DNA of 36,583 nt from the IMG/VR virus record IMGVR_UViG_3300005663_000127, positions 1 through 36,583 of that record. One strand, 5' to 3'. The notes under the pieces were generated by a model that saw nothing but the letters and a program-made list of their open reading frames with translations, was not told the DNA's origin and did not search any database. Below are positions 19,382 through 27,575 of the stretch, in pieces (within the stretch, counting starts at the first letter, position 1; every line of letters starts with the position of its first letter). Source of the stretch: a virus. The translations under genes were made by a program, and so were the position numbers.

Positions 19382-19759
19382 TTAAAATTTATGTATAACA
19401 TCTGCATCCATATCAGGACTATAACTCAACACTCTGCCTTTCGACTCGGTGAAACAAGCTCCCTTACCCTTCGCTCTTTGTAACGCTTTATATATCGAAT
19501 CGGGAGTTGCTTCAAAATGTTCTGCTATTTCTTCGACAGACCAACCCTCAACATAATACAGGTGGTGTCGCTCTGCTTCCAGCCTGGTTAATATCGGGAA
19601 AAAATGCGGGAAAGCTTCCTCAACACGCTTTAGTGCGTCCGATATTACCGATTGGCTAACGCCCAGTTTTTTTGCTGCTTCTGTTTGGCTTAGGCTATCA
19701 AAATCATGGTGTACTAATCTTAATATCTGCTCTTGTCTCTTTGTTATAACTCGTTTCAT
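19382..19759 (-). CDS. Sigma-region-4-like HTH regulator, 125 residues
   Basis: Two helix-turn-helix units are apparent: SLSQTEAAKKLGVSQSVISDALKRVEE (about 22-48) and WSVEEIAEHFEATPDSIYKALQRAK (about 73-97), both in the style of sigma-70 region 4. The rest is short: a basic start (KRVITKRQEQILRL) and an acidic end (YSPDMDADVIHKF). It has a paralogue at 20164-20556 with a matching start (RQEQI) and end (HKF). AGAGGG, part of the 36-base duplicated element, forms its ribosome site. A transcription factor for phage promoters is the likely role. Confidence 0.75.
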   Translation of the reverse strand: MKRVITKRQEQILRLVHHDFDSLSQTEAAKKLGVSQSVISDALKRVEEAFPHFFPILTRLEAERHHLYYVEGWSVEEIAEHFEATPDSIYKALQRAKGKGACFTESKGRVLSYSPDMDADVIHKF

Positions 19760-19764
19760 GTTAT

Positions 19765-19800
19765 CCCTCTATACTACAGTAGGATTAGCCCTTATTATCG
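19765..19800 (-). promoter_or_regulatory. 36-base duplicated element in front of the HTH gene (copy 1)
   Basis: Read on the minus strand this begins CGATAATAAGGGCTAAT and ends ACTGTAGTATAGAGGG. It matches the plus-strand stretch 26972-27007 at 34 of 36 positions; the only difference is an inverted dinucleotide in the middle. It lies 5 bases before the HTH start. It lacks a sigma-70 -35 box but ends in TATAGAGGG, reminiscent of single-subunit RNA polymerase promoters. Phage promoter or operator; see also copy 2. Confidence 0.65.
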
Positions 19801-19840
19801 ATTCCCCAAGAATAAATCTGAAAATTTTGTGGATATTCTT

Positions 19841-20035
19841 TTATCGGACATTTCTTGACCGTTTCCATTTTATTATTTCGGTTAATCGTTGTTCAATATC
19901 CTCTATTGGAAAAATCCATTCACGCGGATAGTATTCTAACAAATCTTGAACTGTAAATATGCCGAGTTTGTTAAACAATTTTACTCGGTTCGGCCCAATG
20001 CCTTTGGTATATTGTATTGGTGTATCCAAGTTCAT
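19841..20035 (-). CDS. RecG-wedge-like mini-protein, 64 residues
   Basis: Starting at ATG 20035 the product reads MNLDTPIQYTKGIGPNRVKLFNKLGIFTVQDLLEYYPREW, close in pattern to the N-terminal wedge region of bacterial RecG (LDTPIQ, KGVGPKRA-type helix-hairpin-helix, DLLxxxPR). All helicase motifs are absent; the protein ends 25 residues after the wedge match. An upstream ATG at 20065 would add ten residues, but these are read from a hairpin repeated elsewhere in the window. It may bind branched DNA, or it may be a captured host fragment. Confidence 0.65.
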   Translation of the reverse strand: MNLDTPIQYTKGIGPNRVKLFNKLGIFTVQDLLEYYPREWIFPIEDIEQRLTEIIKWKRSRNVR

Positions 20036-20071
20036 AAGCTCTGGCCAGCCAGATAAACTGGCCATCGCCTA
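20035..20071 (-). repeat. Hairpin with tandem G-A mismatches, copy 1
   Basis: On the minus strand: TAGGC, GA, TGGCCAG, a nine-base loop, CTGGCCA, GA, GCTTA. The two GA steps face each other and the outer stem contains a G-U pair. The second copy at 25132-25182 keeps both stems and the GA/GA step but changes the loop and replaces the G-U by A-U, which suggests that the RNA fold is conserved. The 3' arm ends on the first base of the RecG-wedge start codon, so it could mask initiation. Confidence 0.5.
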
Positions 20072-20163
20072 CACACTTGGGTGTTTTACAGTCAGAGATT
20101 TACCATAATATTTTAACGAAACCGCCTTTTAATTGCCTCTAATACAAACGTGAGGACTTGGTG

Positions 20164-20556
20164 TTAAAATTTATGTGTAACTTTAGAATCCATCCACGGA
20201 GAATATGTATCTACTCTATGAAGACAATTAGGTTGAAGATATATTCCCTTTTTACGCATATAATATACTGTACGAGCAGCGGTTTGCCATGTGACTCCCA
20301 GGTACTTACTGATCTTCGGATGTGTCATACCCATTACTTCGCGTAAAATATATATATCCATCTGTCGCGGTGTGAGAATAGGAAAAAGTTGTGGAGCTAT
20401 CCTCTGCATCTTACGCATATGACTGTTGATACATTTCAATGAGACACCGAGCATCGCCGCTACCTGCTTTGTAGTTAAGCCGCCGAAATCGTGATGCCGC
20501 ATCCGGTATATCTGTTCCTGGCGGTGTGATATGAGTCGTCTCAATGTACTACCCAT
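20164..20556 (-). CDS. Second sigma-region-4-like HTH regulator, 130 residues
   Basis: A paralogue of the protein at 19382-19759. Shared landmarks are RQEQI, HHDF, a first HTH (LTTKQVAAMLGVSLKCINSHMRKMQ), the FPILT linker, a second HTH (MTHPKISKYLGVTWQTAARTVYYM) and the terminal YSP-MD-HKF. It overlaps the end of the upstream gene by 16 bases and has no strong ribosome site of its own. The two proteins may act on different promoters or as partners. Confidence 0.75.
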   Translation of the reverse strand: MGSTLRRLISHRQEQIYRMRHHDFGGLTTKQVAAMLGVSLKCINSHMRKMQRIAPQLFPILTPRQMDIYILREVMGMTHPKISKYLGVTWQTAARTVYYMRKKGIYLQPNCLHRVDTYSPWMDSKVTHKF

Positions 20557-20804
20557 TGTATTTCTGATCGCGTTACCAGTATATGTGATGTGTTTAGAAT
20601 CTTCTTGAGTTTATCAACACACACCTTAACAGCAGTACCTATATGGAAAGAACTGTTAATCTCAATAATCTGGCACGGCCTGTAATTATTACCAAAATAT
20701 GCCATGCCGGTTAGAATTACGAAGTCACTCGCCAGTTCCTTAACAGCTTCGATCACAGCTTTCTGTTTGTTGAATCGTTGTTCGATCTGGATTCTGTATA
20801 GCAT
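20541..20804 (-). CDS. Hypothetical protein, 87 residues
   Basis: The ribosome site is the GAAAGTGAGGT cassette repeated in this belt of small genes. The product is alpha/beta (MLYRIQIEQRFNKQKAVIEAVKELASDFVILTGM, KLKKILNTSHILVTRSEIQW) without cysteines suited to metal. Family not recognised. Translation of the HTH gene below is probably coupled to it. Confidence 0.6.
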   Translation of the reverse strand: MLYRIQIEQRFNKQKAVIEAVKELASDFVILTGMAYFGNNYRPCQIIEINSSFHIGTAVKVCVDKLKKILNTSHILVTRSEIQWVVH

Positions 20805-20813
20805 TATGTTACC

Positions 20814-20981
20814 TCACTTTCCTAAAAATTCGTGTGTTCTTCGGCAATTCCCACAAGTAACCTCCTGCCTGGTTTTGGCAACTTCACCTTGATTGCCCAA
20901 AGCATAAAAATCTTTATTACAAGCTGCTGGCCCATTTTCAGGAACATTAGGTCTTGTTGGTACAAAATGTTTCTTTCTCAT
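20814..20981 (-). CDS. Small cysteine-bearing protein, 55 residues
   Basis: ATG 20981 is chosen because AAAGGA stands nine bases upstream and it partly overlaps the preceding stop; a TTG six codons earlier is less likely. The protein has Cys in AACNK and a CGNC pair near the C-terminus, consistent with a small zinc site. Function unknown. Confidence 0.6.
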   Translation of the reverse strand: MRKKHFVPTRPNVPENGPAACNKDFYALGNQGEVAKTRQEVTCGNCRRTHEFLGK

Positions 20982-20982
20982 A

Positions 20983-21372
20983 TCACACGTTCCTTTCAAT
21001 CTTAATCGTTACATTTTCAGTTGACTGATACGCATCGAGTGCTTGTTTGAATAGTTCATGCCATGAGTTATAGCTTGAATTAAGATATATCATGTTGTCA
21101 TCCAAGACTAATCCGTTCTCAATCTCATGTCCGAGATATGCCGCCAAATACTGAGCCAATGGTTTCGGCTTGTGTGGACAGTCAACGTTGTGCTTACATT
21201 CTTTGCAATCACCGTATTCGATCTCCGGTGTGCCTTGTCGTTCAGCTTCAATTATAGCTTCAGACATTATGGTTGCCATATCAGCAGACGGTTGTTCTTC
21301 CCAAACAAATTCATTGTTAGTCATTTTTTCAAACCAAGTTTGAGCTATTCTGCACGCATTTAATAAATCCAT
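20983..21372 (-). CDS. Hypothetical protein with cysteine knuckle, 129 residues
   Basis: The start at 21372 follows GAGGTGAAAAT; an in-frame ATG at 21438 would add 22 residues but sits beside an AT-rich hairpin and has no site. The central GDCKECKHNVDCPHKP motif gives four Cys and a His for a zinc site. An N-terminal helix (LLNACRIAQTWFEKM) and a C-terminal helix (SWHELFKQALDAYQS) flank it. Family not recognised. Confidence 0.6.
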   Translation of the reverse strand: MDLLNACRIAQTWFEKMTNNEFVWEEQPSADMATIMSEAIIEAERQGTPEIEYGDCKECKHNVDCPHKPKPLAQYLAAYLGHEIENGLVLDDNMIYLNSSYNSWHELFKQALDAYQSTENVTIKIERNV

Positions 21373-21435
21373 ATTTTCACCTCTACTTTCTTTTGTTTTT
21401 AATATGTTGTTCCCGTAATCCAATCTTTTACTAAA

Positions 21436-21475
21436 CATAAATGAGAATAATAATAATAATGAAGCGTATTCTCAC
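21436..21475 (-). terminator. AT-rich hairpin (weak terminator or processing site)
   Basis: TGAGAATA and TATTCTCA form a perfect eight-base stem around an AT-rich loop that includes a run of TAA/ATT triplets. There is no clear U-run after it, so it is a poor intrinsic terminator. It separates the 59-residue gene from the cysteine-knuckle gene. Confidence 0.3.
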
Positions 21476-21651
21476 TTCCCATATCTCCTTTCAAGTGATT
21501 TTCGAGAAGCCACGACTTTTTCATAGACCAGCTTCGCTACCTGCTCGGCATTCTTAATGCCATATGAAGCAATAAACCTATCAGCGAAGCTCTGTGCTAT
21601 TCCTGGTATCGGCTTATCGAGTTTGTTACTACGTTTGTTTCGTGTTCTCAT
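21472..21651 (-). CDS. Small basic protein, 59 residues
   Basis: Starts at ATG 21651, right after the stop of the 23-residue membrane peptide (TAACATG). Basic at both ends (MRTRNKRSNKLDK, SRKSLERRYGK) with a helix between (IKNAEQVAKLVYEKVVA). No family recognised; possibly nucleic-acid binding from charge alone. Confidence 0.55.
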   Translation of the reverse strand: MRTRNKRSNKLDKPIPGIAQSFADRFIASYGIKNAEQVAKLVYEKVVASRKSLERRYGK

Positions 21652-21652
21652 G

Positions 21653-21724
21653 TTATCGTTCCGCTATTCGTTTCATAACTTCTGCCATACACCACCCAAG
21701 TATAAATCCCATTACAAATTCCAT
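21653..21724 (-). CDS. 23-residue hydrophobic micro-protein
   Basis: GAGGTGG lies about seven bases before ATG 21724. The product MEFVMGFILGWCMAEVMKRIA has one short hydrophobic helix and a basic end, as in small membrane peptides. It is followed after one base by the 59-residue gene. A 14-codon ORF overlaps its start in another frame and I do not count it. Confidence 0.45.
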   Translation of the reverse strand: MEFVMGFILGWCMAEVMKRIAER

Positions 21725-21804
21725 AGTTCACCACCTCTACTTTCAATTAAACTCATAAGCTCCGACTGTCCGGTAATGATTGTAGACAGCCGTTGCTTGT
21801 GGGT

Positions 21805-22008
21805 TTAGTTGATGATCTGCACTTCGGCGTTGACTGGTGTTACCATATTTCCGCACATATCAGACCAAACGCTACCATCGCCTAAAGTAACTGCGTCTTG
21901 GTCAAATTCAGTCTTGATACATACTGTGCCTTCATACCGAAAGCAATCCCCCGCATCCAAATCTGCAAAATCTATCAAGTTCTTTTCGTTGTTCTCTCTT
22001 ACTCTCAT
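21805..22008 (-). CDS. Small conserved phage protein, 67 residues
   Basis: ATG 22008 follows GAGGTGATT. The pattern NLIDFADLDAGDCFRYEGTVCIKT, VTLGDGSVWSD and VTPVNAEVQI is one I know from many small phage proteins of unknown role: a compact beta-barrel-like domain in which 'LDAGDCFRY' is followed by a product ending in 'VTPVDAxV'. No enzyme motif is present. Confidence 0.6.
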   Translation of the reverse strand: MRVRENNEKNLIDFADLDAGDCFRYEGTVCIKTEFDQDAVTLGDGSVWSDMCGNMVTPVNAEVQIIN

Positions 22009-22040
22009 AATCACCTCATCTTTCCGCACCTGTGGTGGTG

Positions 22041-22226
22041 CTACCTTAATATGCTGACATCTATTTTTATAGTTTGGTCGTTATAGTCGAATGTTATCAA
22101 ACCACCTATTGCGTCCACTTCTTGATTTTCTACTTTCCTTAAATCAAGTCGGTCACTAAAAGATCCGTTATCCATTAACGTATCGTAAATCCTGTCTGTG
22201 ATGTCTGTAATTTCTCGTAGTGTCAT
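22041..22226 (-). CDS. Hypothetical protein, 61 residues
   Basis: GGGTGAG precedes ATG 22226, overlapping the end of the gene above. Acidic N-terminal helix (LREITDITDRIYDTLM), then two strands (DAIGGLITFDYNDQTIKIDVSIL). No family recognised. Confidence 0.55.
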   Translation of the reverse strand: MTLREITDITDRIYDTLMDNGSFSDRLDLRKVENQEVDAIGGLITFDYNDQTIKIDVSILR

Positions 22227-22229
22227 ATC

Positions 22230-22562
22230 TCACCCTGTCCTTTCCGGCTCATCGGCCTGTTCTGCTTTGTTGATAGTTGTTTCTAATTTTTTCTCGCATA
22301 TTTCAAAAAGATCAGCTAAATACTTTCCCAAATCATCATCTGGTGGAAACGCATCATTCTTTAACCGCTCACCACAAATCAAAGGCAAAGCATATTTACA
22401 CACATTCAGCAAAATCGCCTTATCAGCAGTATCTTTTGGGATTGTATAGCCGCAAGTCTCACAAACTACCCAGTCTGAAATAAATGGCGTATCGTAATTG
22501 ATGTCGATGTCCTGTTTACCTTGTATTTCGGCTTGTTCACCGCATTGTTGACACTTATACAT
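22230..22562 (-). CDS. Zinc-ribbon protein, 110 residues
   Basis: Cys pairs CQQC (residues 4-7) and CETC (34-37) frame a classic zinc ribbon. The rest is helical with further Cys (VCKYALPLICGERL). The upstream GTGAGGTAACG is one of the repeated ribosome-site cassettes in this region. Function unknown. Confidence 0.65.
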   Translation of the reverse strand: MYKCQQCGEQAEIQGKQDIDINYDTPFISDWVVCETCGYTIPKDTADKAILLNVCKYALPLICGERLKNDAFPPDDDLGKYLADLFEICEKKLETTINKAEQADEPERTG

Positions 22563-22749
22563 TCGTTACCTCACTTTCACTTTCTGTTACAATATCAGCA
22601 ACCCGTTCCTGTAATTCACATTCACCATCGGCTGCACAATCACTTGCACAATCACTGTGTTGTTGACAGTGTTCAATGCAGGTTAATTCCTGTTTTGTTA
22701 ATCGTGCTGATAACAATGCGTACTCGTTTGATTCGTATAGTCTGGTCAT
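22555..22749 (-). CDS. Small cysteine-rich protein, 64 residues
   Basis: The start at 22749 overlaps the upstream stop as ATGA. Contains CIEHCQQHSDCASDCAADGEC, six Cys in about 20 residues, which would suit one or two metal sites. The tail is acidic (ADIVTESESEV). No family recognised. Confidence 0.6.
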   Translation of the reverse strand: MTRLYESNEYALLSARLTKQELTCIEHCQQHSDCASDCAADGECELQERVADIVTESESEVTNV

Positions 22750-23042
22750 TTGATCTTCCCACAATCGCATTTATGCTTCCGGCCATTCATATCACAACCG
22801 ACTACGCGGCTACATTTGACACAACGTTGTTGATTTTTAATGTCCTGTTCTGGTTTTCTCATATTGCCCTCGTTTCTTTTTTTACGAGTTTCAGCTTCTT
22901 TACACTTTTTAGCTTTCCACTCTTTTTGAGTATAATTGACTTGTTTGTTAATTACAACGCGACCAAGCCTGCGTTCCCTCTTAGTTATCTTTTTATCATC
23001 TTTGCTAACTGGCCGATACATACCTACTTTTTTAAGCTGCAT
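22746..23042 (-). CDS. Basic protein with C-terminal zinc ribbon, 98 residues
   Basis: Lys/Arg-rich along its length (DDKKITKRERRLGRVVINK, QKEWKAKKCKEAETRKKR), then CVKC...CDMNGRKHKCDCG at the end. Probably a nucleic-acid-binding protein. AGAAAGTGAGGTGG precedes the start, and a consensus sigma-70-type promoter lies 25 bases further up, so this gene heads a transcript. Confidence 0.65.
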   Translation of the reverse strand: MQLKKVGMYRPVSKDDKKITKRERRLGRVVINKQVNYTQKEWKAKKCKEAETRKKRNEGNMRKPEQDIKNQQRCVKCSRVVGCDMNGRKHKCDCGKIK

Positions 23043-23066
23043 ATTACCACCTCACTTTCTATTACA

Positions 23067-23095
23067 ATCATATCATATTCGTTTCGGCTTGTCAA
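23067..23095 (-). promoter_or_regulatory. Sigma-70-type promoter, leftward
   Basis: TTGACA (23095-23090), a 17-base spacer, and TATGAT (23072-23067) on the minus strand. Both boxes are near consensus. It points at the gene starting at 23042. Confidence 0.75.
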
Positions 23096-23098
23096 GTG

Positions 23099-23338
23099 TT
23101 ATTTTTGGAATTTTTCAAATAATTCATACTTTAGCCGCATATCAAATTCTATTTTTAATGCCTGCATAGATATAATTATGGATTCTTGGTCTTTTTTATT
23201 AGTTGTTTTTACGTGCGTATAGACCATAACAAGACCACCAAATGCACCTATTTTTTGTTGAGGTGTATATTTTTTTGAGCACATAATCTCACGGAATTTC
23301 ACATACTCGCTTCTGTAATATTCCATTGTTATATCCAT
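23099..23338 (-). CDS. Hypothetical protein, 79 residues
   Basis: ATG 23338 (MDITMEYYRSEYVKFREIM) follows GGAAAGTGGGTAAA. The protein is helical and contains a hydrophobic middle (GAFGGLVMVYTHV) that is probably buried, not membrane. Family not recognised. The gene ends just before the promoter at 23067-23095. Confidence 0.55.
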   Translation of the reverse strand: MDITMEYYRSEYVKFREIMCSKKYTPQQKIGAFGGLVMVYTHVKTTNKKDQESIIISMQALKIEFDMRLKYELFEKFQK

Positions 23339-23407
23339 TTTACCCACTTTCCGGTTTATCGGCCAAAATCCGAAGTCCCTACGTTCGCTGTACTGGACGT
23401 TCTCCGG

Positions 23408-23824
23408 TTAGTTAGTCTTATTGTACTGCTCAAATACGCCACAACCATTACTGAACGTACCAAGCCTGTTAAGCCTCAGCACAAACTGGCCGATTATCTC
23501 TGATATTGTGTCCCATATTTGTAACAGCCAATGTTCGGCTAATTCAGGATACTCCGTGTTGTCTCGGACAAACACCGATACTGCTCCGCAACCGCAATAT
23601 TCTGCAATACTGATCTGTACATGGTCGTTTTCAAGCAGGATTTTGTTTTCCCGGTACGGACATTTCGCCCATTGATTCGGCGTACTGATAAAAGACTTGT
23701 ATTGTGATGTCAAGGCACAAATAATATTATCGCATAAGTCTTCCCAATCTATGTTATCTTCGCAAAACTCACTTGTGTCAAAATACACTATGTTATCGCC
23801 TATCGTTTCTACGCTTCGTCCCAT
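23408..23824 (-). CDS. Hypothetical protein, 138 residues
   Basis: ATG 23824 (MGRSVETIGDNIVYFDTSEF) has GGAGGG seven bases upstream and nearly touches the preceding stop. Acidic and mixed alpha/beta, with Cys at several places (CEDN, LCDN, KCPYRE, YCGCGAVSVFV) but no clear ribbon. Recognisable strands include HVQISIAEYCGCGAVSVF. Family not recognised; accessory role likely. Confidence 0.6.
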   Translation of the reverse strand: MGRSVETIGDNIVYFDTSEFCEDNIDWEDLCDNIICALTSQYKSFISTPNQWAKCPYRENKILLENDHVQISIAEYCGCGAVSVFVRDNTEYPELAEHWLLQIWDTISEIIGQFVLRLNRLGTFSNGCGVFEQYNKTN

Positions 23825-23825
23825 T

Positions 23826-24467
23826 TTACAACCCTCCGCTTGTTTGTAGTCTCTGTTCTCGTAATTCACCGCTAAACATATCCGGCGTTCCAGTACAGAA
23901 TGCTTGCCAGCGTATATCTTCGATATTATGTGCTTCGCGTTCGTCATCGTGGTATTCTTTACAATCAGTGCAAATCCATATATGGTCGTAATGTTCGTCT
24001 GGATTTACTCTAATAATACTTTCTTGACCTATATAAGACTCACAGCAGGGACATTCGCCCGCCATATAACAATCATAACAAAGTAAATCTTTGTCCTCTA
24101 TTGTCATATCATCGTGGTCCGATATTTGGCCATCACATACCGAACATACTACGAAAAAATCAATAAACGATTCTGCTTTATGGGCGTTGTAATCATTGAA
24201 CCATTGTAAAACGCCGGAAACGTGAACAGGATGAGTTTCTTTACTGAACGTCTCGATGTCTTGCTTGTTGCTTAAATTATAGATGTAGGTATGCGTTTCG
24301 TCTCGTTCAATAAGCTGCTCTGCATCCTGCCGATTATCAATTCCTGCTCTACCGGACGATTGTATATCGTGGAACGTTCCTTGTTTGTCGATGTAAAAGT
24401 AATTCCACTCCCAATAGCATCCATCATAGCCACCACCTTCATAACATACTAAAATGTTAGTTTTCAT
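23826..24467 (-). CDS. Protein with LIM-like multi-cysteine domain, 213 residues
   Basis: ATG 24467 (MKTNILVCYEGGGYDG) follows GGGGG and overlaps the upstream stop region. The N-terminal half is alpha/beta (WEWNYFYIDKQGTFHDIQSSG). From about residue 110 there are at least four Cys pairs (VCSVC, LCYDC, CPCC, ICTDC) spaced as in a LIM or treble-clef pair, so two zinc ions are likely. No catalytic motif is visible. It is the largest gene in the accessory belt. Confidence 0.65.
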   Translation of the reverse strand: MKTNILVCYEGGGYDGCYWEWNYFYIDKQGTFHDIQSSGRAGIDNRQDAEQLIERDETHTYIYNLSNKQDIETFSKETHPVHVSGVLQWFNDYNAHKAESFIDFFVVCSVCDGQISDHDDMTIEDKDLLCYDCYMAGECPCCESYIGQESIIRVNPDEHYDHIWICTDCKEYHDDEREAHNIEDIRWQAFCTGTPDMFSGELREQRLQTSGGL

Positions 24468-24468
24468 G

Positions 24469-24663
24469 TTAATCCCCCAATCCACAAGCTTTGAGAAACT
24501 TATCGCGATTAAAACGCGGGTCATCTGTTGCAAAGTAGTCGGCTAAATCCTCAACCAGCGAACGATGAAATAAACGGTCTGTTATATCCTCTAAATGTGG
24601 TGTTGATTCTTCGTTCTGGTAGATAGCTTTCGCAATCGCTTTGTAGTCTTTCTTTGTTACCAT
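24469..24663 (-). CDS. Small conserved phage protein, 64 residues
   Basis: Preceded by AGAAAGTGAGGAC. The sequence has a common phage pattern of unknown role: a first helix (KKDYKAIAKAIYQ), then LVEDLADYFATDDPRFNRDKFLKACG. The 'DPRFNRDKFLKAC' ending recurs in many phages. Function unknown. Confidence 0.65.
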   Translation of the reverse strand: MVTKKDYKAIAKAIYQNEESTPHLEDITDRLFHRSLVEDLADYFATDDPRFNRDKFLKACGLGD

Positions 24664-24679
24664 GTTATGTCCTCACTTT

Positions 24680-24946
24680 CTATAACAACCTGCTCTCAAC
24701 ATTCAAAACCTGTAATAATACTGCATCCTGCTCGTTATGCTTCTTAAACCAGTATGCCAGCCTGCCGATGTCTGATTCGATAGACGGTGCATCGGAGACA
24801 ATCTCGATAATCAGAGACTTCTCTCGAACGCCTTGCCAAGCTCCGTTTGCGTTGATAATCGTGTAGCCATCTGGGAAGTGAATATCGAGACGGTCGGTTA
24901 TATTCTCATAGTTTTTGTTTTCGGTGAATATTCTATATAGTTTCAT
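24680..24946 (-). CDS. Small conserved phage protein, 88 residues
   Basis: AAGTAAGGTAACG stands upstream of ATG 24946. The pattern MKLYRIFTENKNYENI, then DGYTIINANGAWQGVREKSLIIEIV, is a small alpha/beta domain common in phages, with a helix at the end. The 'GxW-GxxEKSLIIEI' core resembles proteins encoded next to accessory modules. No known function. Confidence 0.6.
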   Translation of the reverse strand: MKLYRIFTENKNYENITDRLDIHFPDGYTIINANGAWQGVREKSLIIEIVSDAPSIESDIGRLAYWFKKHNEQDAVLLQVLNVESRLL

Positions 24947-24955
24947 ATCGTTACC

Positions 24956-25096
24956 TTACTTTGATTTACATTTTATCCACTTACTTTGTTTGTTTTTCTG
25001 CACCATAATTACTTCGCCAGTATCTTCATCAATAGTTGGCAATGGGCCATTTAATATTATGCCGATGTAATTATCAATCCAGTTTTTCTCTTTCAT
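24956..25096 (-). CDS. Small protein, 46 residues
   Basis: GGAG stands seven bases before ATG 25096. Product: MKEKNWIDNYIGIILNG, then VIMVQKNKQSKWIKCKSK. Short, basic at the end, no recognised family. The hairpin repeat (copy 2) lies 36 bases upstream. Confidence 0.55.
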   Translation of the reverse strand: MKEKNWIDNYIGIILNGPLPTIDEDTGEVIMVQKNKQSKWIKCKSK

Positions 25097-25131
25097 AGTA
25101 TTACTCCATATACTGTTAGGCGGTAAACTCA

Positions 25132-25182
25132 ATAAGCTCTGGCCAGTATAATCATAAGATAGCTACACTGGCCATCGCTTAT
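25132..25182 (-). repeat. Hairpin with tandem G-A mismatches, copy 2
   Basis: On the minus strand: ATAAGC, GA, TGGCCAGT, loop of 19 bases, ACTGGCCA, GA, GCTTAT. It has the same architecture as copy 1 at 20035-20071 with an unrelated loop. It lies between the 105-residue gene (ending 25197) and the 46-residue gene. Confidence 0.5.
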
Positions 25183-25196
25183 GGAGTTCATAGTGG

Positions 25197-25511
25197 CTAA
25201 CTACAAACGGCTTCGATTAACATTTCTTCTTGATCTTCTGTCATACTGCCATAAGTTTTTAATTCGTATTCTTTGGCAATAAATGTTTTACCGTCAATTT
25301 TTCGACTGTCAATAGTCTCAATAGTCATAACAGCACCTATTAACGATTCATAACCCATTCCACTGTCAAGTGAACCGTCTTTGATTCCATTCAGTATTTG
25401 TTTGTGTAATCCTGTTATGCTGTTGTCTGTTAGTGTTTCGGCAGCATAACCATTAACTCCGTCGCCCCAACAATTACCCAACACTATGCCTGTTGCTTTG
25501 TGTGTAATCAT
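25197..25511 (-). CDS. Hypothetical protein, 104 residues
   Basis: ATG 25511 (MITHKATGIVLGNCWGDGVNGYAAETL) has TGAGG six bases upstream. The Gly-rich start and the segment LIGAVMTIETIDSRKIDGKTFIAKEYEL suggest a beta-rich fold. The N-terminal pattern seems conserved among small phage proteins, but I cannot name the family. It is transcribed from the promoter at 25552-25580. Confidence 0.6.
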   Translation of the reverse strand: MITHKATGIVLGNCWGDGVNGYAAETLTDNSITGLHKQILNGIKDGSLDSGMGYESLIGAVMTIETIDSRKIDGKTFIAKEYELKTYGSMTEDQEEMLIEAVCS

Positions 25512-25551
25512 TTTCATCCTCACTTTCTGTTAGCCACTATTGACTATGTAA

Positions 25552-25580
25552 AGTATAACACATCCCGATTAGTATTGCAA
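25552..25580 (-). promoter_or_regulatory. Sigma-70-type promoter, leftward
   Basis: TTGCAA (25580-25575), 17-base spacer and TATACT (25557-25552) on the minus strand. It lies 40 bases before the start at 25511. Confidence 0.6.
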
Positions 25581-25597
25581 GTTAAATCTTTTGATTA

Positions 25598-25739
25598 TGA
25601 TATTTTTTATACCATTTCGCTGTTAATTTTTTACGTTCAGTCAATGTCAAAGTCTCACGTTGAGAGTGAGTCAAGTATATTTTTCCCAATAATGAAACTT
25701 TGCATAGGCAGCACGTTCTTTTATAGTTAGTTTTTTCAT
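25598..25739 (-). other. Two tiny overlapping-pattern ORFs, 22 and 31 codons, doubtful
   Basis: On the minus strand an ATG at 25739 gives MKKLTIKERAAYAKFHYWEKYT; just after, in another frame, a TTG gives a 31-residue peptide with LTLTERKKLTAKWYKKYH. The two resemble each other in the LT-ER-AKW/AKF pattern, so they could be remnants of one frameshifted gene or tandem micro-genes. Neither has a convincing ribosome site. Confidence 0.2.
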
Positions 25740-25745
25740 ATTACC

Positions 25746-25774
25746 ATTGTATCATATCCGGTATTGGTTGTCAA
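25746..25774 (-). promoter_or_regulatory. Consensus sigma-70-type promoter, leftward
   Basis: TTGACA (25774-25769), 17 bases, TACAAT (25751-25746). It lies directly beside the first TACCCAGAC-type site (25787), so that array could modulate it. Confidence 0.75.
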
Positions 25775-25786
25775 GTCTTAAATTCG

Positions 25787-26147
25787 GTCTGGGTATAAAT
25801 AATCTACCCAGACGTGATAACTGTGATACTGGTCTAATATGGCGGTTGTGTCTATGTATGTCTGGGTATAAAATAGTTACCCAGACACTTGTAAACTCTT
25901 GATAGTGTTGGCCTTATGGCTGATTATGGTCTATATGTCTATATACTCTTTATAATTAGCTATTAGTAATATATAGGGATAGTAGGGTATAGGTAGCTAA
26001 CCGTTATAAGCGTTAAGTATATATATATAAGTCTCTGACCGATTCTACCCAGACTACCCAGACACGGGTTATAAGTCGTTGTGTTGTAAGGATTTATATG
26101 CGTCTGGGTACGAAAATCTACCCAGACTTATATAGACATACCCAGGC
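25787..26147. repeat. TACCCAGAC/GTCTGGGTA array, candidate origin or operator
   Basis: Eight exact nine-base sites plus one near-match (TACCCAGGC at 26139). They form inverted pairs at 25787-25813, 25860-25886 (both with nine-base spacers) and 26102-26127 (eight), and a direct tandem pair at 26046-26063. The stretch 25900-26040 between pairs is very rich in A and T (TATATATATA-type steps). No gene covers it. Repeated sites plus an AT-rich unwinding-like zone at the divergence of the two transcription arms are typical of a replication origin or of a multi-site regulator target. The binding protein is not identified. Confidence 0.7.
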
Positions 26148-26247
26148 AGGGTTACTCCCAAAGGTATACACCTAAAGTGGTACTACTAAAGGCATATGGT
26201 ACTAATTCTAAGAAATCCGCTCTCACCCTATCTGATCCGCATAAATG

Positions 26248-26289
26248 AACAGCCGGTCAGTTATCGTCCCTGATAACCAACCGGCTGTT
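26248..26289. terminator. Long hairpin, 18-bp stem, probable terminator
   Basis: AACAGCCGGT and ACCGGCTGTT form the base of an 18-bp stem (with two G-U pairs on the RNA), closed by a six-base loop. It follows the end of the leftward small genes at 26312 and separates them from the repeat array. A strong U-run is lacking on both strands, so factor-independent termination is plausible but not sure. Confidence 0.55.
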
Positions 26290-26311
26290 GGTGAAGTGAG
26301 TGATGGAGTGA

Positions 26312-26455
26312 TTAGTCGTATAAACTATACTCCGTTACAAACCCGTCTTTAGATTGTGCTTTTAGTGATTTTTCTGCACCTTCTTTTGTTTTATGTATTG
26401 ACCGGAGCATTGCTGTTTTAACTTTATAAATGTATAGTACCCATACTTGTTTCAT
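26312..26455 (-). CDS. Small protein, 47 residues
   Basis: Starts at ATG 26455 (MKQVWVLYIYKVKTAMLRSIHKTKEGAEKSLKA). The pattern of a strand, then HKTKEGAEK helix, resembles small phage proteins with a beta-alpha-beta fold. The upstream site (GTGAGAATAAG) is weak. It ends just before the 18-bp hairpin. Confidence 0.5.
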   Translation of the reverse strand: MKQVWVLYIYKVKTAMLRSIHKTKEGAEKSLKAQSKDGFVTEYSLYD

Positions 26456-26465
26456 TTTCTTATTC

Positions 26466-26597
26466 TCACTTTCTGTCTGGTCCTATTACCCGTTTGAACA
26501 ACCGAAGATAATCACGCCATAACTGATTCGCTTCTGGTTGCGTGATATATCCCCACGATACTAACTGTCTTAGTCTATTGCGTTTCATGGTCTTCAT
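26466..26597 (-). CDS. Small basic protein, 43 residues
   Basis: AGAGG stands seven bases before ATG 26597. Arg/Lys-rich (MKTMKRNRLRQLVSWGYITQ, LWRDYLRLFKRVIGPDRK). A helix-turn-helix-like pair is possible but too short to claim. First clear gene after the promoter at 26714-26742. A 13-codon hydrophobic ORF at 26630-26671 (MLILVVAAYLSLC) lies in the leader and may be a peptide; no site supports it. Confidence 0.5.
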   Translation of the reverse strand: MKTMKRNRLRQLVSWGYITQPEANQLWRDYLRLFKRVIGPDRK

Positions 26598-26713
26598 TTT
26601 AAGGCCTCTCACGTTCTCTCTATTGAACGTTAGCACAACGATAGGTATGCCGCTACTACGAGTATCAGCATATCATGCAACGTGATGTTGTTTAATATCT
26701 TGTTCATGCTTAT

Positions 26714-26742
26714 AGTATAACACACACAAGGCACAAGTGCAA
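26714..26742 (-). promoter_or_regulatory. Sigma-70-type promoter, leftward
   Basis: TTGCAC (26742-26737), 17 bases, TATACT (26719-26714) on the minus strand. It drives the two small genes ending at 26312. Confidence 0.6.
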
Positions 26743-26799
26743 GTATATTCTCAGATTATTCTCAAATTCTTTTATCGGACTGTGTGTGTGCTACTGGCA

Positions 26800-26895
26800 A
26801 GGATGCAAGGCTGATTCGCGAGTCCCCCGCCGCCACCCTTGTTATCGGTCGTTGGGAGTCCCTGGTCCCCCTTCCTACTCGGAATCGCCACCCCG
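26800..26895. other. GC-rich non-coding island with tRNA 3'-end-like stretch
   Basis: In the 26598-27053 gene-free gap, about 95 bases are C-rich on the plus strand, unlike the AT-rich surroundings. At 26813-26837 the plus strand reads GATTCGCGAGTCCCCCGCC then GCCACC, like the T-loop and acceptor 3' side of a tRNA or tmRNA, but no matching 5' acceptor lies upstream. CGCCACCC recurs at 26831 and 26886. A vestigial tRNA end or attachment-like sequence is possible; no integrase is seen. Confidence 0.3.
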
Positions 26896-26971
26896 TTTTC
26901 AGTGTTAGATAATCACTTAACAACTGCGGGACCTGGCCAGAAAAAATATTTTATATTTATTCCCGAAAAGG

Positions 26972-27007
26972 CGATAATAAGGGCTAATCTCACTGTAGTA
27001 TAGAGGG
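26972..27007 (+). promoter_or_regulatory. 36-base duplicated element before the virion operon (copy 2)
   Basis: Same element as 19765-19800 but on the plus strand, 34 of 36 positions identical, with a further upstream match ATTTATTC after nine unmatched bases. It lies 46 bases before the GroES-fusion start and is the last non-coding signal before the rightward genes. It is likely the promoter or operator of that operon. Confidence 0.65.
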
Positions 27008-27053
27008 CAGTGTTTTGTGTCCATAGATAACCCACGTTGAGAGAGGATATGAT

Positions 27054-27575
27054 ATGAAAATGCAAGAATACCGCGGGATCTTGAAGAAGTGCACCCCAGT
27101 CGAATATCAGTACAGTGATTGGATGGGTGATTGCCAACAAATGTTGGTCCAAACTTTACACCTTGGTGGCCTTGCGGTTTCTATAGATATAAAAGAGTTA
27201 GACGACAAAACAGATGATGAGATAAAGGAACTTATCAAGGATAGGATGCTTATTGCTTTACATAATGCCATAGTGAGATTATGCCCGACTTATTTCACAG
27301 GACAAAGAAAACACATGATCGAACCACTAAAAGACAATGTAGTAGTTAAACCTGCCAAAGCATCTGAAACAACTCCGGGCGGGATTATCATTCCTGATCG
27401 TGCACAAAAAGATCCTAAATTTGGTGTAGTTGAGTCTGTTGGTCCCGATGTTGAAGCTCTTAAACCAGGTGATACTGTATTGTTGCCAGGTTGGGATGAT
27501 GCGACATTAGAGATCGATGGCGAAAAATATATTGTACTCGCAGAGAAAGCTATAAGTGTGAGGATCTCTGAATGA
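27054..27575 (+). CDS. Co-chaperonin GroES domain with N-terminal extension, 173 residues
   Basis: Residues about 88-173 are a GroES/Cpn10 domain: EPLKDNVVVKPAKASE, a mobile loop with GGIIIP (the III triplet matching the IVL that binds GroEL), FGVVESVGPDVEALKPGDTVLLPGWDDATLEIDGEKYIVLAEKAISVRI. The first 87 residues (MKMQEYRGIL...KDRMLIALHNAIVRL) are unrelated and unknown. GAGAGG lies seven bases before ATG 27054, while the internal ATG before the GroES domain has no good site, so it is made as a fusion. Phage co-chaperonins (T4 gp31 is the model) pair with host GroEL to fold capsid protein, and this gene heads the capsid operon. Confidence 0.9.
   Translation: MKMQEYRGILKKCTPVEYQYSDWMGDCQQMLVQTLHLGGLAVSIDIKELDDKTDDEIKELIKDRMLIALHNAIVRLCPTYFTGQRKHMIEPLKDNVVVKPAKASETTPGGIIIPDRAQKDPKFGVVESVGPDVEALKPGDTVLLPGWDDATLEIDGEKYIVLAEKAISVRISE

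Follow-up and report, generated by a model that had tools for sequence, protein, structure and literature searches.

The viral record IMGVR_UViG_3300005663_000127, analysed here over its full 36,583 nucleotides (the window), carries two copies of an element that point away from one another. The left copy, L, lies just before the gene of a small helix-turn-helix (HTH) protein, HTH1; the right copy, R, lies before an operon that opens with a GroES-like gene and continues into virion genes. On comparative sequence grounds, the element is real, conserved and under selection as a pair. With a core that varies from phage to phage, is matched between the two copies of one phage and changes in step with the regulator, it has the look of a private on-switch for an activator of the phage's own making. 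We consider it probable that the two copies form a sigma70-type promoter pair in which the −35/spacer region would be the site of HTH1, activator of its own operon and of the virion operon.

Two outward-facing copies in the window

The elements and the adjoining regulator are placed as follows.

19765–19824, minus strand: left element L, a 60-nucleotide profile match ahead of HTH1 that includes the 36-mer at 19765–19800; leave-one-out nhmmer E = 3.6e-10.
26949–27007, plus strand: right element R, ahead of the GroES/virion operon, including the 36-mer at 26972–27007; leave-one-out nhmmer E = 3.6e-14.
19382–19759, minus strand: HTH1, 125 residues, with two HTH domains like that of sigma region 4; the proposed cognate activator.

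The 36-mers read CGATAATAAGGGCTAATCCTACTGTAGTATAGAGGG (19765–19800, minus) and CGATAATAAGGGCTAATCTCACTGTAGTATAGAGGG (26972–27007, plus). They are identical at 34 of 36 positions and divergently oriented, a CT/TC swap is their sole difference, and ATTTATTC is found nine bases upstream of both; in all of this the initial annotation of the window was correct. Both copies fall in I1, an inverted repeat of 64 nt at 80%; no other in the window is as long, the second measuring 34 nt at 74%. Inverted 36-mers with at least 34 matches have a chance expectation of about 2e-9. The record-wide search that the initial annotation had proposed returned only these two copies, and the reversed control pattern none. 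On the other hand, the 9-mer TATAGAGGG at the end of the element, allowing up to one mismatch, was found six times against 6.7 expected. As the 9-mer by itself is no commoner than chance predicts, the signal belongs to the element as a whole and not to its end.

Recurrence in relatives

If the pair matters to the phage, is it found in other phages? A search with polA gave 15 loci, whose contigs were read; HTH1 was located and aligned in nine of them, at 49–86% identity to that of the window. In these relatives one element stands before HTH1 and one before the first right-arm gene, divergent and with unchanged geometry. Profiles built without the genome under test gave exactly two strong matches (E ≤ 1.5e-3) in each of the window, G001, G003, G006, G010 and G011, and these always precede HTH1 (or open reading frames inserted in front of it) and the right arm. 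In G005 and G009 the copies have diverged beyond the reach of the profile, yet they occupy both expected places. A terminase search gave 80 loci; in about ten additional contigs, near-duplicates among them, it revealed a right-arm element upstream of terminase. New pairs came from four more contigs (G024, G015, G016 and G026), bringing the known matched pairs to twelve; their terminases are as little as 46% identical to that of the window. The first HTH match in locus L124 is of the HTH2 type (HTH2 is a paralogue of HTH1); the true HTH1 lies farther along, in G024. In G017 and G018 an HTH1-like protein is present and no clear site was found. The element thus stands before the equivalent genes in relatives, which supports the earlier suggestion of a phage-specific promoter/operator coupling two transcription units. 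The initial annotation had named absence before such genes as refuting; its suggestion withstands that test.

Some genomes depart in detail. At G011:11077–11740 inserted small open reading frames, the last of them in frame with HTH1, separate the left element from that gene. Probable third copies lie in the leftward arm at G004:517–554 and G005:29122–29158 (minus), both weak by profile (E = 0.02 and 0.1); the extra copy in G004 closely resembles the left site of its own genome.

The core is matched within each genome

The element can be divided, in each copy, into an upstream core and a −10-like end.

19777–19802, minus strand: −35 position and 18-bp spacer of L, 26 nt, matched within each genome (permutation and Mantel tests).
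26970–26995, plus strand: the corresponding 26 nt of R (permutation tests).
19785–19802, minus strand: proposed HTH1 site in L, the upstream 18 nt of the matched 26.
26970–26987, plus strand: proposed HTH1 site in R, counterpart of the above.
19765–19776, minus strand: −10-like TAGTAT of L, followed by purine-rich AGAGGG (discriminator or ribosome site).
26996–27007, plus strand: −10-like TAGTAT and AGAGGG of R.

When the copies are aligned on the −10-like end, the upstream 26 nt vary greatly among phages (for example GGCGATAATAAGGGCTAATC, CCTTGCAAATAGTTCCAATT, CCTTCTAAATACCTTCGTAT and GTTCGTAAAGGGAGTAGCTG); the upstream 18–26 bp differ among phages and are alike in both copies of one phage. 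For positions −36 to −11 in eight genomes, true pairing of left with right copies gave 151 identities, where permuted pairings averaged 101; no other of the 40,320 arrangements scored as high (p = 2.5e-5). The effect resides in −36 to −19 (p = 2.5e-5) and is weak in −18 to −11 (p = 0.07). Outside the matched segment the eight genomes showed no significant pairing excess, neither in the upstream 22 nt (p = 0.81) nor in the −10/AGAGG block (p = 0.13). In the test on twelve genomes the observed value was not reached in a million permutations, and for each left copy its own right copy ranked first to third. In G015 the copies are identical at 43 of 43 positions, in a sequence quite unlike that of the window. 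For G015, G016 and G026 the located right copy scored 43, 30 and 30 against 25, 26 and 23 for the next best match. In G015 and G026 it lies upstream of terminase and points towards it; in G016 it lies at the contig end with terminase near the contig start, which would imply a circularly permuted genome.

Copying of the whole segment from one site to the other, by gene conversion for instance, was considered and rejected: the upstream 22 nt show no within-genome excess.

The sites covary with HTH1

What protein might read so variable a core? HTH1 matches Pfam Sigma70_r4_2 in two stretches (E = 9e-12), and its AlphaFold2 model consists of two three-helix units (pLDDT 75.7). It most resembles sigma region 4 and YlxM-like HTHs. 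It does not qualify as a sigma factor, which requires regions 2 and 4, since its 125 residues hold region-4-like HTHs only. A tblastn search with HTH1 in 50,697 phage records gave no match, that is, no relative in cultured phages; genome contigs gave one weak match, from Gimesia (29% over 70 residues), and a fold search with the model none at E ≤ 0.001. Its paralogue lies in the upstream part of the same operon.

20164–20556, minus strand: HTH2, 130 residues, Pfam Sigma70_r4_2 E = 2.5e-11.

Both proteins end in a common C-terminal tail, Y.P.MD..I..KF. HTH2 has lost one HTH in G001, G003, G006 and G008 and occurs in the dual-HTH form in other relatives.

In Mantel tests, distances between left sites follow those between HTH1 proteins in 11 genomes (r = 0.57; partial on polA r = 0.51, p = 0.0009), and so do right-site distances, in seven genomes (r = 0.65, p = 0.0006) and in twelve (r = 0.63, p = 0.0004). 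Among close genomes the right sites did not track TerL, p28821, p27572, polA, p17621 or p18734. When distant genomes are included terminase correlates too (r = 0.47); across the twelve, the correlation of sites with HTH1, partial on TerL, stays at r = 0.52, and the reverse partial is negative. A weak Mantel hint connects the N-terminal HTH with −36 to −29 and the C-terminal HTH with −28 to −19. This covariation supports recognition of the element by the adjoining HTH protein, as the initial annotation had surmised; HTH1 is the predicted reader, and nothing in the data speaks for HTH2 as a second binder, which the initial annotation had also suggested.

Physical linkage of HTH1 to the left site was examined as the cause of covariation and rejected: the right sites, about 7 kb away, covary too, and p27572, which adjoins R, does not.

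Anatomy of the putative promoter

The T and A of hexamer positions 1 and 2 rank among the most conserved bases of the element: T at position 1 in 19/19 sites (1.00), A at position 2 in 17/19 (0.89). The −10-like hexamer scores 4–5 of 6 in most copies. At 18-bp spacing, the −35 hexamer fits TTGACA at only one to four of six positions, one of six for CGATAA in the window, and it changes together with HTH1. The earlier statement that there is no sigma-70 −35 box holds when judged by TTGACA at 16–18 bp. An AT-rich, UP-like tract lies upstream of the element.

The initial annotation had also assigned the element a ribosome-site role for the regulator. This is possible at the left copy; however, AGAGG is retained as well at right copies followed by a first gene with a Shine–Dalgarno-like sequence of its own downstream. 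In the window the GroES gene has its own, GAGAGAGG, at about 27040, and AGAGGG is kept at R nonetheless. A purely ribosomal role for AGAGG was for this reason rejected.

In 13 of 19 right sites a T-run, often RTGTTTT, follows the element within 16 nt (background 7–9%; in the window, 27008–27024). It occurs also where no gene obviously starts.

Genome setting and a putative early promoter

The leftward arm of the window phage consists of small genes, HTH2, HTH1, polA and primase; the rightward arm comprises the GroES-like gene, terminase, portal and further virion genes. Three features complete the setting.

26714–26742, minus strand: PL, sigma70-like promoter of the leftward early arm, TTGCAC-17-TATACT.
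19841–19849, minus strand: GTCCGATAA box upstream of L, common to PL, where it lies at 26772–26780 (minus).
27054–27575, plus strand: first right-arm gene, 173 residues, with a C-terminal GroES-like (Cpn10) domain (Pfam PF00166, E = 7e-19).

PL is conserved in seven relatives (G001, G003, G005, G009, G010, G011 and L019), and a TCCGATAA box precedes it in most. The GTCCGATAA box is kept in most relatives. From its start to the −35 of PL is 38 bp; at L the −35 position follows after 49 bp, one helical turn farther on. Because the leftward arm has a promoter-like sequence of its own, the left element sits within the leftward operon, just before HTH1, and not at the start of the arm. The earlier description of an element heading both arms holds for R, before the GroES/virion operon, and calls for refinement at L; to call the unit served by L the 'early arm' is imprecise, as PL heads that arm and L would serve HTH1 and the genes behind it.

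Several smaller features lie nearby. Adjoining L upstream, at 19841–20065 (minus), is a 74-residue open reading frame with a RecG wedge domain (PF17191, E = 3e-8) and no helicase part. Also upstream of L, at about 20036–20065, is an inverted repeat, TGGCCAG...CTGGCCA, present in relatives too; TGGCCAG is seen again upstream of R. At about 26905–26924, upstream of R, lies the imperfect palindrome TGTTAGATAATCACTTAACA, kept in L019, G005 and G011, a possible operator or origin. A largely self-complementary 27-mer, GTCTGGGTATAAATAATCTACCCAGAC, has two copies (25787–25813 and 25860–25886), 85% alike, with starts 73 nt apart.

Proposed mechanism

How might the pair work? Each element would be a promoter for host RNA polymerase of the sigma70 type, with a weak or absent −35, and its −35/spacer region (−36 to −19) would be the binding site of HTH1. 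Host polymerase would start at PL and transcribe the leftward early genes through to HTH1. HTH1 would then activate L, and with it its own gene and the replication genes behind, a positive feedback; it would also activate R, and so the virion operon. HTH1 binding, activation, the transcription starts and the temporal order are what we infer. A monomer that has two different HTHs would suit a non-palindromic site spanning two consecutive major grooves. As regulator and sites drift together, each phage would come to hold a private matched pair.

Certain points weigh against this reading. The −10 is poor in G005L, G009R and G016. AGAGG as ribosome site at L needs a transcription start upstream, which suits poorly a −10 directly before it; without that role, the left mRNA would be nearly leaderless. 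The right sites of G015, G016 and G026 were located by their likeness to the left sites, so that the twelve-genome permutation test is biased upward and the eight-genome test is the cleaner; the segment boundaries were picked after the alignment had been viewed. The Mantel tests are not fully corrected for phylogeny, and confidence in the HTH1 structure model is moderate. Finally, a single feature, the weak −35, suggests activation rather than repression.

Alternative readings

The main mechanistic rival, which we nevertheless think unlikely, is a Q-like antiterminator: HTH1 would bind between −35 and −10, join polymerase paused just after the start and read through terminators of the virion operon. 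The Q site of phage 21 and lambda lies between −35 and −10, and the HTH of 21Q resembles sigma region 4 (PMC6606751). The matched segment −36 to −19 overlaps that position, and the T-run after 13 of 19 right sites also speaks for this reading. However, the 46 nt between R and the GroES gene of the window hold no terminator-like site, and even the −35 position changes along with HTH1. The protein is moreover short, with two HTHs instead of one, and the match to PF06530 (antitermination Q) is weak, partial and below cut-off (E = 0.005).

Might HTH1 instead be a repressor, closing its own operon and keeping the virion operon silent until relieved? HTH proteins that repress themselves from an adjoining operator are common, and repressor and operator diversify together in heteroimmunity groups. 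We find this quite unlikely: integrase and resolvase domains (PF00589, PF00239) were absent in 12 records in which the controls were positive, with no sign of lysogeny, and sigma70 would need a −35 that is kept, whereas here the −35 position varies with HTH1.

Covariation is correlation, and the cognate factor could be another, unseen protein with a similar history of divergence; HTH2, with the same HTH and tail, is included here. The lack of covariation among close genomes for all six other proteins compared, and the reduction of HTH2 to one HTH in four genomes, make this very unlikely.

The initial annotation had likened the TATAGAGGG ending to promoters of single-subunit phage RNA polymerases, and matched private promoters do exist in T7-like phages. 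We abandon this highly improbable proposal: PF00940 was absent in 13 records, some perhaps from incomplete contigs, and present in the T7 control; the matched segment, numbered as in T7, would fall at about −33 to −16, whereas the T7 promoter extends over −17 to +6; and each genome has only two main copies. Equally improbable is a site of recombination, inversion or replication, with inverted repeats around 7 kb: inverted orientation, identity within genomes and the resemblance of HTH1 to invertase HTHs (phrog_125, E = 2.5e-4) favour it, but the same 12 records lack a recombinase, the orientation is the same in all pairs, several pairs are merely 16–17/26 identical, the −10-like end and the place before genes are kept, and the probable extra copy in G004 is a direct repeat.

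Significance and comparison with known systems

The pair offers a late switch of an uncultured phage group that can be tested from sequence alone, with a 125-residue protein and two sites of about 45 bp; a dozen natural variants predict which protein reads which site. If our reading of HTH1 as activator is true, these phages hold a ready, natural set of orthogonal small activators or switches. They would also exemplify a regulator and its promoters diverging rapidly together in phages in which no integrase was detected, so that lysogenic immunity is hardly the reason.

In T4 middle promoters a site for a phage activator takes the place of the −35, the sigma70 −10 is kept and host polymerase is used; the activator, MotA, acts as a monomer (PMC2988021). 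At the level of architecture, the elements described here appear to follow the same plan. But the MotA box is about 10 bp and common to nearly 60 T4 promoters, whereas the present site is about 18–26 bp, has two main copies per genome and differs in every phage. HTH1, unlike MotA, has two sigma-region-4-like HTHs; no AsiA partner was identified, no search aimed at MotA or AsiA having been made.

The lambdoid Q site is embedded between the −35 and −10 of the late promoter and is read by a sigma-region-4-like HTH (PMC6606751). The matched segment overlaps this interval and HTH1 is likewise sigma-region-4-like. In the lambdoid case the site belongs to the late promoter; here the regulator's own operon bears the same site too, the window has no leader terminator before the first right-arm gene and no Q family match rose above cut-off.

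T7-like phages have private promoter specificities that covary with a phage protein. They differ in that no such polymerase was found here, the matched region lies too far upstream and there are two main copies only. In phages of Gram-positive hosts, late activators of the ArpU/RinA type are small HTH proteins that switch on late genes; HTH1 matched neither family among the NCBIfam and PHROGs matches listed.

We offer as a tentative possibility, short of probable, that HTH1 represents a new class of activator: one polypeptide whose two sigma-region-4-like HTHs would, at promoters of host polymerase, replace sigma region 4 on the −35/spacer. It would be so diversified that, in this uncultured and apparently virulent group, every phage has a regulator/promoter-pair specificity of its own. 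The class of mechanism is already known from T4 MotA and lambdoid Q; the protein family and the diversified matched pairs appear to be new.

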